64,000 nucleotides of DNA from Pelosinus fermentans JBW45 (lineage in GTDB: Bacteria > Bacillota > Negativicutes > DSM-13327): positions 4,447,001-4,511,000 of the forward strand of contig NZ_CP010978.1 of NCBI RefSeq assembly GCF_000271665.2, read 5' to 3'. The position numbers were made by a program, and so were the translations under genes. Below are positions 18,974 to 30,897 of the stretch, piece after piece; the stretch's first letter is position 1; each line of letters begins with the position of its first letter. The notes beneath the pieces are model-generated. The model was not told where the DNA came from, did no database searches, and saw nothing but the letters and a program-made list of their open reading frames with translations.

Positions 18974-19144
18974 ATGACTGACAACCTTTATGCAAGACGA
19001 CACTCAGAGATAAGCTTTTTTACATCTCCGAATAAACATAAGCTCCCTGTTCTACTAAGTGTACTATTTGCTATTGTTGATGATTTAGAGGTTGATATAA
19101 TCCAGTTTTCTATGCCAATTAAAGAAAAAAGTAATAGCATCTAA
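18974..19144 (+). CDS. Doubtful small ORF, 56 aa, convergent with the reverse transcriptase
   Basis: Open frame from ATG at 18974 to TAA at 19144, overlapping the end of the convergent RT gene by 4 bases. The middle, LPVLLSVLFAIVDDLEVD, is hydrophobic. There is no ribosome site. It may be chance, a gene remnant or a small component of the RT locus. I do not recognise it. Confidence 0.25.
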   Translation: MTDNLYARRHSEISFFTSPNKHKLPVLLSVLFAIVDDLEVDIIQFSMPIKEKSNSI

Positions 19145-20496
19145 TATCGGTCACGCAGATTTTGTATATCTCTTTCTAGTTCTCGTACCGAGCTAAAAAC
19201 AATGCATTTAAAAGCATGAGTAATATTAACTTCATTCCACTCCGGTAATTCTACTTCCATCTCTTTTAAAAATTTCTCTTTATCTACCAATAGGAAATTG
19301 TCGAAATTCGGAATATATCCTGTTTCATTCAAATTATTAATCATTTCATGATAAGTCCTTACAAACCTTTTTATTTTTTTTCCATCAAGTTTTGTCTCAA
19401 GTTCAAATCTCTTAATTAGTTTTTTTATAATCCAGTCGAAATGAAATAAAATCGAAAGTTGAGTTATTTGGGAGAAGAAGAAAACCCATCCATATTTCTT
19501 GTTATCACTTATACATCCCGTTATTCTGAGATTGAGTTTCCACAAGAAAAAAGACGTTCTCTTAAAACCTGAATTTTTATAATCTATAAATAAATTTTCA
19601 AGTGAGTTCTCTAACTTTCTTTTAGATTTTTCTCTCACTGAAACAATAGGTCCTTTAAATGAGTATCCCAGATAGGAGAATTCTTTAGTAATTTCATGTG
19701 CTTCAGTTTTTTTAGCATTTACCTTTAGTGAGTAGTTGCTTTTTATTTCATTAAGGATATCTTCTTTAATTTGTTGATAATTATCTGCTCTGCAAAGAAT
19801 AAGTATATCATCTACAAACCTAAAATATTTTAGATTGTTTAACTGTGAGAATTTCTTATCCATCTGAATTAAATAAATACTGGATAATATATTGGAAATA
19901 GGGAGCCCTTGTGGTATTCCACGCTTATTCTTTTTACACTCTTTAGACTTACACTTATCTAAAACAGTAGGTGTTGTTATAGCTCCTCTGATAAGTTTTA
20001 ACACCTTACGGCTTTTAATTTTTTTATTTATCTGAGCGAATAATATCTTATGATTAATAGATGGATAGTAATCTTTTATATCAAGTTTAATTACATAATT
20101 ATATTGAGAAATACACTGTTTTATTTCCTCAACAATAGGTTGAATCATTCTATGTTGTACTTCCGGCGAAAATACATCTTGAATAAGAGTTCTTAAAATC
20201 CTCAAAGTTAATTTATCTCTGATTGTCGGAATTGAAATCACTCTTGGTAACTGTTCACGATTCTTTAATATTAGAGATTCCTTATAAGGACTAAACTTAT
20301 AAGTTTCATTTAAAACTTTCTTGTGTATACTCTTTACATATTGAGTTAATTTTCTATCAAAAATTCTTTTATTGATTCTGTCAATTCCAGGGGCAGAGCT
20401 GAAATTATGTTCCAAATAGAATTGTTTTATATTATCTTCACTAAATTTTTGCTTCAAAATATCCAAAGTATTATCAGCATTAATTTTAATCACCAC
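19141..20496 (-). CDS. Defence-type reverse transcriptase (UG/Abi-like group)
   Basis: RNA-directed DNA polymerase of about 451 residues. In order: SSAPGID near the N-terminus (RT block 1), PRVISIPTIRDK (block 2), the catalytic Asp in VIKLDIKDYYPSI (about residue 139), RGIPQGLPISNILSS (block 4), FRFVDDILIL with the metal-binding FVDD (about 227-230), LKVNAKKTE and FSYLGYSF. A helical C-terminal region of about 180 residues follows. There is no maturase X domain, HNH or Cas1. The start is a GTG overlapping the SLATT stop (AAGTGGTGA), so translation is coupled; no ATG is available. This pairing and the folded RNA upstream place it with the unknown-group/DRT reverse transcriptases; I recall SLATT partners for the UG10 (DRT10) class. 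Confidence 0.85.
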   Translation of the reverse strand: MVIKINADNTLDILKQKFSEDNIKQFYLEHNFSSAPGIDRINKRIFDRKLTQYVKSIHKKVLNETYKFSPYKESLILKNREQLPRVISIPTIRDKLTLRILRTLIQDVFSPEVQHRMIQPIVEEIKQCISQYNYVIKLDIKDYYPSINHKILFAQINKKIKSRKVLKLIRGAITTPTVLDKCKSKECKKNKRGIPQGLPISNILSSIYLIQMDKKFSQLNNLKYFRFVDDILILCRADNYQQIKEDILNEIKSNYSLKVNAKKTEAHEITKEFSYLGYSFKGPIVSVREKSKRKLENSLENLFIDYKNSGFKRTSFFLWKLNLRITGCISDNKKYGWVFFFSQITQLSILFHFDWIIKKLIKRFELETKLDGKKIKRFVRTYHEMINNLNETGYIPNFDNFLLVDKEKFLKEMEVELPEWNEVNITHAFKCIVFSSVRELERDIQNLRDRY

Positions 20497-21089
20497 TTTA
20501 TATAAGTATAGATAACAAAAAGTGGACCAATGAAGCAAATTAGCATTGTTATAATTTCTTTCGCTTTAAAATAAGTATACTTTACTTTACAAAATTTTGT
20601 CATTGTTACATCCTTATCATCGCATATTGCTTTTAAATAATCATAACCAGTGTGATTTTCAGCTTCTTGTAAAAGTGATAAATATTTTTTATCTAATTCA
20701 GCCGCTTCATTTATTAATTTATCCTTTTCAATAAAATTTTCCTGAAAATCGGCTTTCAGTTTATTCATATCTTTTGACAGCGCATCTAAGGCTATGTAGT
20801 TATATTTCATTTTAATTGCTCTTTCTTTATAAGCTTTTGATACAATAAATGTTGAATACATAGTCAAAGCGATAGACGAAATTAAGAGAATTAACGACGC
20901 TTTCGATTCATTATTTTGACTTGTTTTCTCTATGAAAAAGACCCATATCGATAAAGCTGTAATTATTGCAGAATAATAGATGAGTAGAGCTTGAGTAAAT
21001 GAATCATTTGAATCAAGTCTTTTTGACGCCTCTATTCTACATAGCCTTGTAATCCATATTTTTTTTGAAATATTATCTATATACTCCAC
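20490..21089 (-). CDS. SLATT-type membrane effector protein partnered with the RT
   Basis: About 199 residues. Two adjacent transmembrane helices (ALLIYYSAIITALSIWVFF, then LILLISSIALTMYSTFIV) are followed by a long soluble helical region with a Lys/Glu-rich coiled-coil and a third hydrophobic segment at the C-terminus (ITMLICFIGPLFVIYTYI). This is the pattern of SLATT (SMODS/SLOG-associated 2TM) effectors, predicted to form pores that kill or arrest infected cells; one SLATT subfamily is reported beside reverse transcriptases. I choose GTG at 21089 because GGAGGG lies 7 bases upstream; the ATG at 21104 overlaps that site. The gene overlaps the RT gene and starts 27 bp after a strongly folded RNA. 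Confidence 0.8.
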   Translation of the reverse strand: MEYIDNISKKIWITRLCRIEASKRLDSNDSFTQALLIYYSAIITALSIWVFFIEKTSQNNESKASLILLISSIALTMYSTFIVSKAYKERAIKMKYNYIALDALSKDMNKLKADFQENFIEKDKLINEAAELDKKYLSLLQEAENHTGYDYLKAICDDKDVTMTKFCKVKYTYFKAKEIITMLICFIGPLFVIYTYIKW

Positions 21090-21115
21090 TATAAAACCCT
21101 CCATAAATAGTAAAC

Positions 21116-23330: not shown

Positions 23331-23389
23331 AAATTTTAAATTGATATTTTTTTAAACTTATAGTAATATTTACTAAAATATATCAATTA

Positions 23390-23662
23390 AAAACTGTGAT
23401 AGAGAGAGTATCTATTTATAAACCTAGCAGAGATGGGACGTCATCGGCTGAAAGCGTCCTTTAGGAGTGAATAGAGAAGACCACTCTTGAGTTGCATGCT
23501 GAACAAAGTGTTTCAACTTTCAATAAGCATAGCCGTAAACCTAGCGTTACTTAGGTATTTAAGCGATGTTTAAAGTGACATTATTTCACTTGGCATAAGC
23601 AGGGTGGAACCATGCGAGCAAAAGCTCTCACCCCTGATTTCTTCAGGGCGAGAGCTTTTTAT
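23390..23662 (+). promoter_or_regulatory. T-box riboswitch, probable threonine specificity
   Basis: Leader upstream of an MFS gene. Conserved elements: AGTA at 23407, stem TCTATT/AATAGA, distal GGCTGAAAGCG, the specifier segment GAAGACCACTCTTGAG, the T-box AGGGTGGAACCATGCG (23601-23616) and an intrinsic terminator (23622-23660, AAGCTCTC...GAGAGCTTTTT). By comparison with the glyQS leader (codon, two bases, TCTTGAG) the specifier is ACC (Thr) at 23480-23482; GAC (Asp) is the alternative. Uncharged tRNA would stabilise the antiterminator and switch on the transporter. Confidence 0.9.
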
Positions 23663-23700
23663 ATTATATAAATAAAAATCATCGTACAAAGGAGCCGCTT

Positions 23701-24939
23701 ATGAGAATAAATCAGTACAAGTTTAACCAATTAGTCTGGATTATTATTATGGGGATTTTTTTATTGAGAATTGGTACATCTATGAGCATACCCTTCATGT
23801 CAATATATTTGCATTTTACATTAGGTATCAGTTTATCTGAAACAGGTCTGATCGTCGGTGCATCATATATTTCACATACATTCGGTGGCTTCTTTGGTGG
23901 CGTTTTATCTGATAAATATGGTAAACGTTATATGCTTGGACTTTCATTATTTTTATATGCTTTAACGTTTTGGGGCTTTGGCTTAAGTGGTACCATGCCA
24001 TTAGAACCAAGCATAATTAGTATTTTATTTTGCATTATAAATATTTTTGCCGGATTATTTCGTGTATGGTCTGAAACTATGGCACAAGCCATGCTATCTG
24101 ATATAGTGGAAGAATCGGAAAAGTTAGCAGTTTTCAACATCCGCTATACTGCTGTAAACGTGGGTGCTGCAATCGGCCCTATTATTGGTGCAATGATTGG
24201 TGTATCAGGAACCATGTTAGGCTTCTATATTGCTGGTGCCTTATGTATGTCCTATTTTATTTTGTTTATGATAAAATCAAAAACTATTAATTCAGTAAAA
24301 CCAAGCGGTATTAATATAAGATTTAGTACTACAGCTAAGACATTGGTCGATGATAAAGTTTTAAGATTTTATATTATTGGTGGAATATTTGCGTTTTTAT
24401 GTTATGTGCAGCTAGAATCAATATTAGGGCAAATTCTAATGCAAAGGTTTGGTCATGCTGATGTATTTACAATCATATTAGTTGTTAATGCAGTAACGGT
24501 GATTTTTTTACAAATCCCGCTTGTTAATTACTACTTGAAAAAATATTCCCCTGTATATCTGATGAAAGTTGGTTGCGTGTTTATAGCGGGAGGCCTTATG
24601 GGTACAGCATTTTCTGGAATGTATATACCTTTGTATATTATCAACCAAATTATATTTACCATAGGAGAAATCTTCTTGTTTTCAATCGGTGGTATCTTTA
24701 TGGATAGTATCGCACCAGAAGAATTAAGAGGCTCATATTTTGGCTGTATGGGATTTATGTATCTAGGTAAATCCATCGGTCCAATCATAGGAGGAGCTTT
24801 ACTTCAGTATTTAGGTTCAGAACAGGCACTCTGTATTTTTGCTCTCATTTCATTAGGTACAATATGCTTTTATACCCAAATCGAAAAGCATATTGTGGGA
24901 TCGAATAACAGCAATCTGATTTTAAATAAAAGTATATGA
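23701..24939 (+). CDS. MFS transporter under T-box control
   Basis: 412 residues, 12 predicted transmembrane segments. The MFS loop motif appears as GGVLSDKYGKRYMLG after TM2. A ribosome site (AAAGGAGCCGC) precedes the ATG. The substrate is not evident from sequence. Because transcription passes through a T-box leader, synthesis should rise when one charged tRNA is scarce, so the protein is probably an importer of the matching amino acid, a peptide or a precursor. MFS genes are not the usual T-box targets, which are mostly synthetases, biosynthetic operons and amino-acid permeases of other families. Confidence 0.88.
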   Translation: MRINQYKFNQLVWIIIMGIFLLRIGTSMSIPFMSIYLHFTLGISLSETGLIVGASYISHTFGGFFGGVLSDKYGKRYMLGLSLFLYALTFWGFGLSGTMPLEPSIISILFCIINIFAGLFRVWSETMAQAMLSDIVEESEKLAVFNIRYTAVNVGAAIGPIIGAMIGVSGTMLGFYIAGALCMSYFILFMIKSKTINSVKPSGINIRFSTTAKTLVDDKVLRFYIIGGIFAFLCYVQLESILGQILMQRFGHADVFTIILVVNAVTVIFLQIPLVNYYLKKYSPVYLMKVGCVFIAGGLMGTAFSGMYIPLYIINQIIFTIGEIFLFSIGGIFMDSIAPEELRGSYFGCMGFMYLGKSIGPIIGGALLQYLGSEQALCIFALISLGTICFYTQIEKHIVGSNNSNLILNKSI

Positions 24940-25017
24940 CGACACTTTGTAAAAAACTCTCCGAGGCTGTAAAAAAATTTTGTGTAAATAAGTATGAATA
25001 CTCTTCCTTTATGGCAA

Positions 25018-25065
25018 AACAAGACGCGGGGACGAAACAAGACGCGGGGACGGTGGTTCTGTCCT
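25018..25065. repeat. Tandem AACAAGACGCGGGGACG units
   Basis: A 15-18 base unit occurs twice in tandem and is followed by GGTGGTTCTGTC, resembling the GGGGACGG repeats. The rest of 24940-25175 holds no gene. Confidence 0.5.
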
Positions 25066-25175: not shown

Positions 25176-27046
25176 AAGGGGCTGTCGCGCTAAGACAACC
25201 CTAAAAAACAAAAGACGGCAACCAGCAGTAGCTGGAAGCCGTCTTTTGTTGTAAAATCAAGTTTGTGAAATCTAAGAAATTACAACTAGATTATACAGTA
25301 GACTCAAATGTATATCAACTAGTAATACCGATGGACATTGGCGAAATGATTCCGGCAGATGATTCGGTGCGGTTGCTCAACGCGGTGCTAGAAAGGATGA
25401 ATTACAGCAAATTGTACGCTGCGTACTCCCGAATGGGGAGAATCGAGATGTCACCGAAATGTCTGTTCAAGATACTTGTATATGGATACATGAACGGCAT
25501 CTATTCGAGCCGCAAGCTCGAGCAGGCATGCCGGCGGGACGTCAACTTCATGTATCTGCTAGGCCGGAGAAAAGCACCAGATCACGCGACGATCGCACGG
25601 TTTCGCAGCGAACGGCTGGCAGAGGTCGTGGACGATCTGTTTGCCCAGCTTGTGCAACTGTTGACCGATGCGGGAGAACTGTCGCTGTCAAGCGTTTTCA
25701 TAGACGGAACCAAATTGGAGGCCAATGCGAACCGATACAGCTTTGTCTGGAAGAAATCGACGCAAAAAAATGAAGAGAAGATGCAGAAGAAGATGAAAGA
25801 AGAGTTGCCGGCGCTAGCAGCGGAGTTTGGGATTCGCTTTTATGTCGGCCAGGTGATAAAGCCCAAAGACCTAAAAAAGCTGCGCAAACGGCTAAAAGCA
25901 CTGCAAGCTGAACGCCGTATTGTTTTTGTTCACGGCAAAGGACAGCGTAAGACTTCGCTGCAGCGGGCGCTTCAAACGGTAGACCAATACCTTGCTCGGC
26001 AGAAAAAGTATAATGACTATAATCATAGCTTTGGAGAACGCAACAGCTTTTCCAAGACGGACAGAGACGCCACCTTCATGCGGATGAAAGAAGATCATAT
26101 GAAAAATGGTCAGCTTAAACCGGGCTACAACGCGATACTGGCGGTGGACGCGGAATATATAGTATCCACAATGATCGGTCAGGACCGAAGCGACAGCCAA
26201 ATGTTGATCCCGATGTTGGAGACGCTCAAGGGACTGGGGTATACAAAACCCGTAGCGGATGCGGGCTTTGAGAGTGAGGAAAATTACACATGGTGCGAGC
26301 AAAACAACCAAATCGCATTTATAAAGCCCGCGAATTATGAGAAGGCCAAGACGAAGAAATATAGGGCAGACATCGGCAAGCGAGAGAACATGCACTACAA
26401 TGCAAAGACCGATAGCTACCTATGTCACATGGGGCGCCCGATCCAGGCAGCTTATGAAAAAAAGACCCGATCTAAGGCCGGATATCCCATCGTGACAACC
26501 GTATACACCTGTCCAGATTGTGCCGGCTGTCCGCATAAGGCCCAATGCATCAAGGGAGCGAGCAAGACTCCCCTCGAAGAACGAAGCAAGAACCTGTATG
26601 TATCCAAAACCTTTTTGCGTCAACGTGAAGAAATGCAGGCACGTATCAAGGGTGAGGAGGGTGTTATGCTTCGGATGAACCGCTCCATTCAGGTGGAGGG
26701 AGCTTTCGGGGTGCTCAAACAGGACATGGGATTTCGGCGATTTCTGATGAGGGGCCGCGTAAAGGTGCAAACCGAGTTTCTATTACTATGCATGGGGTAT
26801 AACGTAAACAAGCTCCATAACAAAATCCAAAGCGACCGGTGTGGGACCTACTTGCATATTCCAAAAGCATCCTGACCAATTCATATCGAGTTTTTCTTAG
26901 GGGAAGAGGCTTCCTCTATTTTGTTGTGTCCATAAACTGGCTCTTGTCTCCTTTTTTTCATTCTTCCTACTGTTTTTCCTTCCTTTTTGCTCAAAAAAGG
27001 CGTGTCGCATTGCGTTTTTTCAAAAAACGTTTTGCGACACGCCCTT
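25176..27046 (+). mobile_element. IS1182-family insertion sequence
   Basis: Left end AAGGGGCTGTCGCGCTAAG and right end (inverted) AAGGGCGTGTCGCAAAACG are imperfect terminal repeats around one transposase gene. Internal hairpins lie next to both ends (AAAAGACGGC...GCCGTCTTTT at 25212; GCGTGTCGCA...TGCGACACGC at the right). Target duplications could not be recognised, and the boundaries are accurate to a few bases only. The GC content is higher than that of the neighbours. Confidence 0.8.
25265..26875 (+). CDS. IS1182-family transposase
   Basis: 536-residue DDE transposase starting at GTG. Recognisable parts: the N-terminal domain (MSPKCLFKILVYGYMNGIYS), ending in DHATIARFRSER; the first Asp in FIDGTKLEANANRY; the second in VADAGFESEENY; a Cys cluster CPDCAGCPHKAQC; and the Glu in NRSIQVEGAFGVLKQDMGF. 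The gene is intact, so the element may still be active. It lies downstream of the MFS gene and upstream of the repeat-flanked tctC fragment. Confidence 0.93.
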   Translation: MKSKKLQLDYTVDSNVYQLVIPMDIGEMIPADDSVRLLNAVLERMNYSKLYAAYSRMGRIEMSPKCLFKILVYGYMNGIYSSRKLEQACRRDVNFMYLLGRRKAPDHATIARFRSERLAEVVDDLFAQLVQLLTDAGELSLSSVFIDGTKLEANANRYSFVWKKSTQKNEEKMQKKMKEELPALAAEFGIRFYVGQVIKPKDLKKLRKRLKALQAERRIVFVHGKGQRKTSLQRALQTVDQYLARQKKYNDYNHSFGERNSFSKTDRDATFMRMKEDHMKNGQLKPGYNAILAVDAEYIVSTMIGQDRSDSQMLIPMLETLKGLGYTKPVADAGFESEENYTWCEQNNQIAFIKPANYEKAKTKKYRADIGKRENMHYNAKTDSYLCHMGRPIQAAYEKKTRSKAGYPIVTTVYTCPDCAGCPHKAQCIKGASKTPLEERSKNLYVSKTFLRQREEMQARIKGEEGVMLRMNRSIQVEGAFGVLKQDMGFRRFLMRGRVKVQTEFLLLCMGYNVNKLHNKIQSDRCGTYLHIPKAS

Positions 27047-27271: not shown

Positions 27272-27490
27272 ACCGCCTCGCTCGAAAGCAAGACGGTACC
27301 TTTTTCTAAGTTATTTTTTTTGCTCCTTAATTCGCTCTAAAATACCAGTTTCTCGTACTATTTTAGATAATGTTTGGTTATCGTACAGCCATTTTGCTTG
27401 GGATTCTTCGGGATTCAAATATTCAAATTGCAGTCCATTATTCTCTACATTTTTTTGGAATTCCGGCTCAGCAATGATAGCTTTTATCTT
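27272..27490 (-). pseudogene. Duplicated 3' fragment of tctC
   Basis: 219 bp nearly identical to 29682-29897, the last 59 codons and part of the terminator of the intact tctC gene. It encodes the C-terminal tail ending ILERIKEQKK. It is bounded on the left by a 110-bp repeat (ends 27264) and on the right by a GGGGACGGGG repeat (starts 27491), with no other DNA in between. An open frame into the right-hand repeat is not a real gene. Confidence 0.85.
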
Positions 27491-27556
27491 ACAAGGGGAC
27501 GGGGTTATCGACAGCCTCTCAATAATTCCAATGTCGATAACCCCGTCCCCTTGACA
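27491..27556. repeat. GGGGACGGGG-type inverted repeat, copy 2
   Basis: CAAGGGGACGGGGTTATCGACA...TGTCGATAACCCCGTCCCCTTG shown here only by its ends (CAAGGGGACGGGG and CCCCGTCCCCTTGACA). Same unit as 23128. Confidence 0.8.
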
Positions 27557-27580
27557 TCTCACTGTTGTCGATCACTCCAT

Positions 27581-29720: not shown

Positions 29721-30740
29721 TTATTTTTTTTGCTCCTTTATTCGCTCTAAAATACCAGTTTCTCGTACTGTTTTAGATAACGTTTGGTTATCGTACAGCC
29801 ATTTTGTTTGGGATTCTTCGGGATTCAAATATTCAAATTGCAGTCCATTATTCTCTACATTTTTTTGGAATTCCGGCTCAGCAATGATAGCTTTTAAACC
29901 ATTAGCTAGCTTATCTTTTACCTCAAGAGGCATTTCCTTAGGAGCTGCCACGCCTATCCAATAACTAAATACAATATCTTTCCCTAGCTCTTTAAATGTT
30001 GGCACATTCGCAAAAACAGGATCAGCTAACCGCTGTTCTCCAGTCACTGCCAACGCTCTTAGCGTGCCATTTTTCAGATGCTCTCTGACTATTGCCGTAC
30101 TCGTAAAAATAGCCTGAACATGCCCCCCCAGTAAAGATCTCAACGATTCTGATCCGCCTTGAAAAGGAACAGGCTGAAGAGTAATGCCAGTCGATTGTGC
30201 GAACATTTCGCTAAGCAAATGCGGCAACGAACCTACACCACTGTTACCAAATTTAAATTGGCCTGGATGCTGGCGAGCATCCTTTACTAAATCGTCAACA
30301 TTTTGCCAAGGCTGATTAGCTTGAACTACCATTATAAATGGTGACGACGAAACTTGTGCAAGCGGCTCTAATGCGGTGGGATAATTGTATTTAGTCAGGC
30401 TGTACATTGGATGTAATATGATTTCAACGCCGGTAATACCAATGGTATAGCCATCCGGTGTAGTCCCAGCCAGTTCATTCCAGGCTAAGGTTCCTGCTCC
30501 TCCAGGCTTGTTAACAACAATCAGTGGTTGGCCCAAATGCTGGATGGCTGTCTTTTCTAGTGCCCGAGCTATCAGATCCAGAGAACCCCCAGCGCTAAAA
30601 GGTACGATTATGGTAATGGGTTTCTCCGGATATTTGTTAGTTGTCGTTACCGCTTTAGGCTCCATAACGGTACAACCTCCTATTATTATTGAGATAAGTA
30701 ACAAACATACTACCACTAAAATAAATGCTTTTTTCTGCAA
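29721..30740 (-). CDS. TctC/Bug-family substrate-binding lipoprotein
   Basis: Periplasmic receptor of the tripartite tricarboxylate transporter type. Start: TTG at 30740 (GGAGG 9 bases upstream) gives a clean lipoprotein signal ending IIIGGC; an ATG at 30767 overlaps the ribosome site. Family blocks are KPITIIVPFSAGGSLD, NKPGGAGTLAWNEL and GVGSLPHLLSEMF. About 339 residues. No tctA or tctB follows, so this is an orphan receptor that could serve another transporter or sense a carboxylate. Its 3' end has been copied to 27272. Confidence 0.9.
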   Translation of the reverse strand: MQKKAFILVVVCLLLISIIIGGCTVMEPKAVTTTNKYPEKPITIIVPFSAGGSLDLIARALEKTAIQHLGQPLIVVNKPGGAGTLAWNELAGTTPDGYTIGITGVEIILHPMYSLTKYNYPTALEPLAQVSSSPFIMVVQANQPWQNVDDLVKDARQHPGQFKFGNSGVGSLPHLLSEMFAQSTGITLQPVPFQGGSESLRSLLGGHVQAIFTSTAIVREHLKNGTLRALAVTGEQRLADPVFANVPTFKELGKDIVFSYWIGVAAPKEMPLEVKDKLANGLKAIIAEPEFQKNVENNGLQFEYLNPEESQTKWLYDNQTLSKTVRETGILERIKEQKK

Positions 30741-30897
30741 TATCGTTTTCCTCCTTTTATCATTCATCTGTTATAATCTTACTTTAAATACAATATACTC
30801 CATTTAATTCATTGTTTCTCCAATAAATGGAATAACCCTTTTTATTTAGTCAAAATAAATCTAAATATAGCTGATATTATATACTAAAATGTTTACG

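Follow-up and report, generated by a model that had tools for sequence, protein, structure and literature searches.

Substrates are commonly assigned to transporters from the amino acid specificity of their T-box leaders, an approach which assumes that each transporter imports the amino acid sensed by its leader. In the B. cereus group, threonine T-boxes precede an APC transporter (a SteT orthologue) and a LIVCS transporter, and a lysine T-box is known in front of an MFS gene (Wels et al. 2008, PMC2494555). RNA switches have also been connected with drug efflux: in C. difficile, an FMN-variant (lumichrome) riboswitch is linked to the EmrB/QacA drug efflux gene CD3299 (PMC11477304). In the open-licence literature, we found no paper that describes a T-box before an efflux pump.

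In this paper we analyse a stretch of 64,000 nucleotides from the chromosome of Pelosinus fermentans JBW45 (NZ_CP010978.1, positions 4,447,001 to 4,511,000), hereafter the window, in which a T-box leader stands before a single transporter gene. At this locus the usual shortcut from leader to substrate may mislead, because its RNA says threonine and its protein looks like an exporter. We consider it probable, at roughly 0.6, that a threonine-specific T-box attenuator here controls one gene, which encodes an efflux-type, H+-coupled MFS pump resembling NorA and LmrP.

The T-box leader and its specifier

The leader lies at 23387-23638 on the forward strand, where it matches the T-box model RF00230 over model positions 1-219 of 219 (cmscan, 90.9 bits, E 1.5e-20). 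The default Rfam scan of the window was empty, because this score is 2.1 bits short of the 93-bit gathering threshold. A whole-genome search (5.38 Mb, one contig) returned 21 full-length T-boxes at E<1e-14, among which the leader ranks 17 and is within the score range of the others; five of the 21 score below 93 bits, the thrS leader among them. When the fold of the leader transcript was compared with those of shuffled sequences, z was -3.5.

All of the following elements are on the forward strand. In Stem I, the 5' half of the specifier-loop S-turn is read from the sequence as AGUA at 23407-23410, in alignment with the consensus AGUA, and the distal bulge motif CAGAGA at 23428-23433 is likewise aligned to its consensus. 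The 3' half of the S-turn, GAA, was placed at 23476-23478 by the covariance-model alignment, and the same motif occurs in most other T-boxes of the genome. The T-box sequence itself, AGGGUGGAACC, occupies 23601-23611, and its UGGA (23605-23608) pairs with the 3' UCCA (U73) of a tRNA. The antiterminator (23600-23636) is formed by CAGGG at 23600-23604 with CCCUG at 23632-23636, plus an inner helix, and is worth about -12.7 kcal/mol by RNAfold when the 3' half of the terminator is absent. An intrinsic terminator hairpin with its T run (23620-23660) overlaps the 3' strand of the antiterminator; by itself the hairpin reaches about -23.7 kcal/mol (RNAfold) and is the stronger of the two structures, which are mutually exclusive since they have bases in common. 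A ribosome-binding site, AAAGGAG, can be read at 23688-23694, ahead of the ATG at 23701. The leader is an ordinary T-box. The sequence-only reading had proposed a T-box with its main elements and a terminator at 23390-24939, transporter gene included, and both the coordinates and the proposal agree with the full-length RF00230 match and the two exclusive hairpins.

The register of the specifier was calibrated on the T-boxes of the same genome, with gene names taken from our reading of the translated ORFs. Seven of these T-boxes precede synthetase genes (valS, leuS, ileS, a second ileS, glyQ, pheS and thrS); in each, a codon for the cognate amino acid is separated by a single base from the 3' strand of Stem IA. 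The same register fits eight biosynthetic T-boxes (leuA, aroF, ilvB, ilvA, trpD, cysE, ilvD and serA), and so agrees in 15/15 of the T-boxes of this genome that precede genes of known amino acid. Under this register the specifier of the transporter leader is ACC (Thr) at 23480-23482, since its loop reads GAA-G-ACC-A-CUCU, with A23483 following the codon and the Stem IA strand CUCU at 23484-23487.

The discriminator base of the tRNA provides a second line of evidence. A UGGA bulge is present in this genome only in the Cys, Gly and Thr T-boxes and in the transporter leader; the base in cysE, which the search pattern missed, was read directly from the sequence. Among the tRNA genes examined, a set without tRNA-Ser, -His and -Gln, U73 is carried only by tRNA-Cys, -Gly and -Thr, and the UGGA of the transporter leader therefore matches U73 of tRNA-Thr. 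A GAC (Asp) specifier, read straight after GAA, would have a parallel in the leuA, leuS and trpD T-boxes of this genome, which have no spacer after GAA. Such a reading, however, puts a gap of two bases between codon and Stem IA strand, where the calibrated T-boxes have one base, and the discriminator of tRNA-Asp in this genome is G73, a mismatch to UGGA; on these two independent grounds we reject it as scarcely credible. Codon and discriminator base both fit threonine, as the sequence-only reading had suspected, and on this comparison of sequences the T-box can be firmly assigned to Thr.

The thrS T-box of the same genome (L020) is the closest counterpart. It belongs to the same leader class, likewise has ACC followed by A, and has the UGGA bulge; it differs in controlling threonyl-tRNA synthetase and in having no GAA before the codon, and the two leaders have only about 64% identity over aligned bases. 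By analogy with the T-box family, charged tRNA-Thr would allow the terminator to form, and uncharged tRNA-Thr(GGU) would pair with ACC and UGGA and stabilise the antiterminator, so that the transporter is made.

Other T-boxes of this genome precede a sodium-symporter-like gene (UUC, Phe; L002), a YkvI-like permease (CUC, Leu; L006) and an ABC ATPase operon (UGG, Trp; L012). A truncated T-box (L022:1501-1652, 32 bits) has a 3' part nearly identical to that of the ilvA T-box (L008) and no recognisable Stem I specifier, and is likely a duplication remnant. A second, resistant threonyl-tRNA synthetase was ruled out, as only one thrS was found in the genome.

The transporter protein

The ORF at 23701-24939 (+) encodes 412 amino acids and matches MFS_1 with 135.2 bits (cut-off 33.4, E 3.4e-39). 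A structure predicted from 18 homologues has the MFS fold with 12 helices (pLDDT 87.6) and finds MFS matches in the PDB; prediction from the single sequence reached a pLDDT of only 41. Profile and predicted fold bear out the expectation that an intact 12-helix MFS gene lies behind the T-box. The nearest NCBIfam model is that of the efflux MFS YdeE (NF007472 equivalog), at 124.8 bits against a curated cut-off of 582, and with a score so far under the cut-off the protein is a relative of YdeE, not a YdeE.

By sequence, the nearest PDB entry is NorA, by profile it is LmrP and NorA, and the nearest PDB folds to the predicted model are again LmrP and NorA. Importers of the MFS superfamily come after these two in the fold search with similar scores, which weakens the case for efflux. 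Two acidic residues align with the proton-coupling pair of NorA, E239 with E222 and E323 with D307; in NorA these residues bind the driving protons (PMC11130294). E323 is Glu in 94/94 homologues, which also share a nearly invariant motif C core, GxxxGP (G155/G159/P160, within G155-P160). The position of E239, however, is acidic in only 20 of the 94 and is not acidic in most of the distant ones, a second point against efflux.

Homologues, their neighbourhoods and the origin of the link

Nine other genomes of the family have no homologue of the transporter at E 1e-30, and 300 genomes of the class yielded three, L066 and L067 (56%) and L068 (42%). A first scan of genome contigs with the single window protein gave no match; the scan of GTDB genomes added a gammaproteobacterial MAG with two copies (L075, 57%; L076, 55%) and many homologues of 31-38% in Bacilli. 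In the tree, the window protein falls in a clade with L066, L067, L068, L075 and L076 (SH-aLRT 100). Nearest plasmid homologues reach about 29% and the leader has no DNA match, and a plasmid origin was set aside.

The closest homologues (55-57%) either end a six-gene cluster or stand alone. The cluster is common to a Negativicutes genome (L069:8189-13954, reverse strand, around L066) and the gammaproteobacterial MAG (L075:1-5203, forward strand, where the contig breaks off within the first gene). It consists of genes for a ThiF-rhodanese protein (E1), a JAB-like protein, a ThiS-like protein that ends in GG, a PLP aldolase of the GntG/threonine-aldolase type, an ATP-grasp ligase and, as the last gene, an MFS protein 56-57% identical to the window transporter. 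The JAB assignment in both loci is a JAMM-like motif read by eye, for which Pfam gave no significant match. We found no paper describing this cluster. In a third neighbourhood (L072), a 37% homologue is encoded by the last gene of a row that also specifies JAB-like, ThiS-like, carrier (ACP), ThiF and A-domain proteins. Like the window gene, the transporter genes of L067/L070 and L076 are isolated. Rows of the ThiF/ThiS/JAB type are characteristic of pathways that make small molecules, and the MFS gene at the end of one would be expected to encode an exporter.

We infer from its sequence, its predicted fold, the proton-coupling residues and the genes around its closest homologues that the window protein is a proton-coupled exporter. 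From the fold, the conserved residues and the homologues' neighbours, it may expel a small molecule derived from an amino acid by proton antiport. The genome of P. fermentans JBW45 has no homologue of the cluster's ATP-grasp ligase at E 1e-40, which counts against efflux and rules out a biosynthetic cluster of this type in the genome itself; any substrate would therefore be of external origin or the product of a different pathway.

The main rival is an importer of threonine, of a threonine-containing peptide or conjugate, or of a precursor, with the T-box raising uptake when threonine is short. The sequence-only reading had favoured a threonine, dipeptide or precursor importer, and here the four lines of evidence just given point the other way. 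Import would follow the usual logic of T-box transporters, and the known ones, which include the threonine T-boxes on APC and LIVCS transporters and the lysine T-box on an MFS gene, are treated as amino acid importers (PMC2494555), an argument against efflux as well. From the proteins, the sole evidence in favour of import is found in L071, where an M20 amidohydrolase gene overlaps the gene of the 42% homologue, an arrangement that could fit import of an amino-acid conjugate. With drug/H+ antiporters as the nearest relatives in sequence and fold, proton residues at matching places, and the closest homologues closing biosynthetic clusters, where export is expected, we consider an importer unlikely.

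The wiring of T-box to transporter is known from one genome only. Among about 90 homologous loci, no T-box was found directly before the transporter by Rfam in L025-L035, L066-L068 and L069-L072, or by motif search in L075-L154; comparative support for the wiring is therefore absent, and this too counts against the efflux reading. Alternatively, the link may be an accident: recombination among the many mobile elements of the region would have brought a threonine T-box in front of an orphan pump to which it had no relation, with no selection for the pairing. This would agree with a transporter that the nine relatives of the family lack, with homologues that carry no T-box, and with a transposase gene directly downstream. 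All T-box elements, the terminator and the ORF are nevertheless intact, which suggests upkeep, and we regard accidental capture as quite improbable.

One locus among the homologues has a T-box nearby. In Paenibacillus antarcticus (L151:1258-5146), a T-box and thrS are followed by a 34% transporter homologue. The motif match belongs to the leader of thrS upstream, and the sequence that separates thrS from the transporter gene could form a terminator-like hairpin; the two are probably separate transcription units. With this hairpin, and as one case in about 90 loci, the locus was dropped as a link between thrS and the transporter.

Several further features surround the gene in the window. The downstream transposase (25265-26875, +) is of the DDE type (DUF772 + DDE_Tnp_1_6), with inverted repeats of the GGGACAGG type in its surroundings, and a perfect 18-base tandem duplication, AAACAAGACGCGGGGACG, lies at 25017-25052. 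At 27311-27562 and 29721-30767 (-), a short ORF is an almost exact copy of the C-terminal part of a TctC-like ORF, a partial duplication. Upstream, a reverse transcriptase at 19141-21104 (-) matches PADLOC RT_UG17 (E 8e-148) and adjoins an RT-associated SLATT protein (SLATT_5); the pair is a candidate DRT anti-phage defence.

Comparison with known RNA switches and transporters

How could a threonine signal serve an exporter? One hypothesis is that the exported compound itself lowers the charging of tRNA-Thr, so that damage to the target is sensed and the pump is switched on. Such a compound could be a threonine analogue that is toxic, or it could inhibit either threonine synthesis or threonyl-tRNA synthetase. 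The T-box would then act as an antibiotic alarm, inducing a pump related to the exporter of the undescribed cluster with its threonine-aldolase-like PLP enzyme and ATP-grasp ligase. We put this forward tentatively, as an attractive but rather doubtful extension of the efflux reading. Should the pump respond to loss of tRNA-Thr charging and remove the agent responsible, T-boxes would have to be counted among the RNA switches that control drug efflux, and the six-gene cluster of the relatives would point to a compound that acts on threonine metabolism.

NorA and LmrP, both MFS drug/H+ antiporters, are the nearest solved sequences and folds to the window protein, with proton-coupling acids in TM7 and TM10 that correspond in position. 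They differ from it in having only about 20% identity to it, and T-box control is not known for either. The T-box transporters of Wels et al. 2008 (PMC2494555) are alike in having a T-box before a secondary transporter, and they include both Thr T-boxes and, separately, an MFS target; they differ in being read as importers, and their MFS target is tabled under Lys, not Thr. The unusual point of the present locus is the target, an efflux-type MFS. A precedent for an RNA switch on a drug efflux gene is the lumichrome riboswitch of CD3299 (PMC11477304). That system resembles the one proposed here in that an RNA switch turns on an efflux-type gene upon exposure to toxic compounds, but it senses the compound itself rather than the charging of a tRNA, and both the RNA and the transporter subfamily are different.
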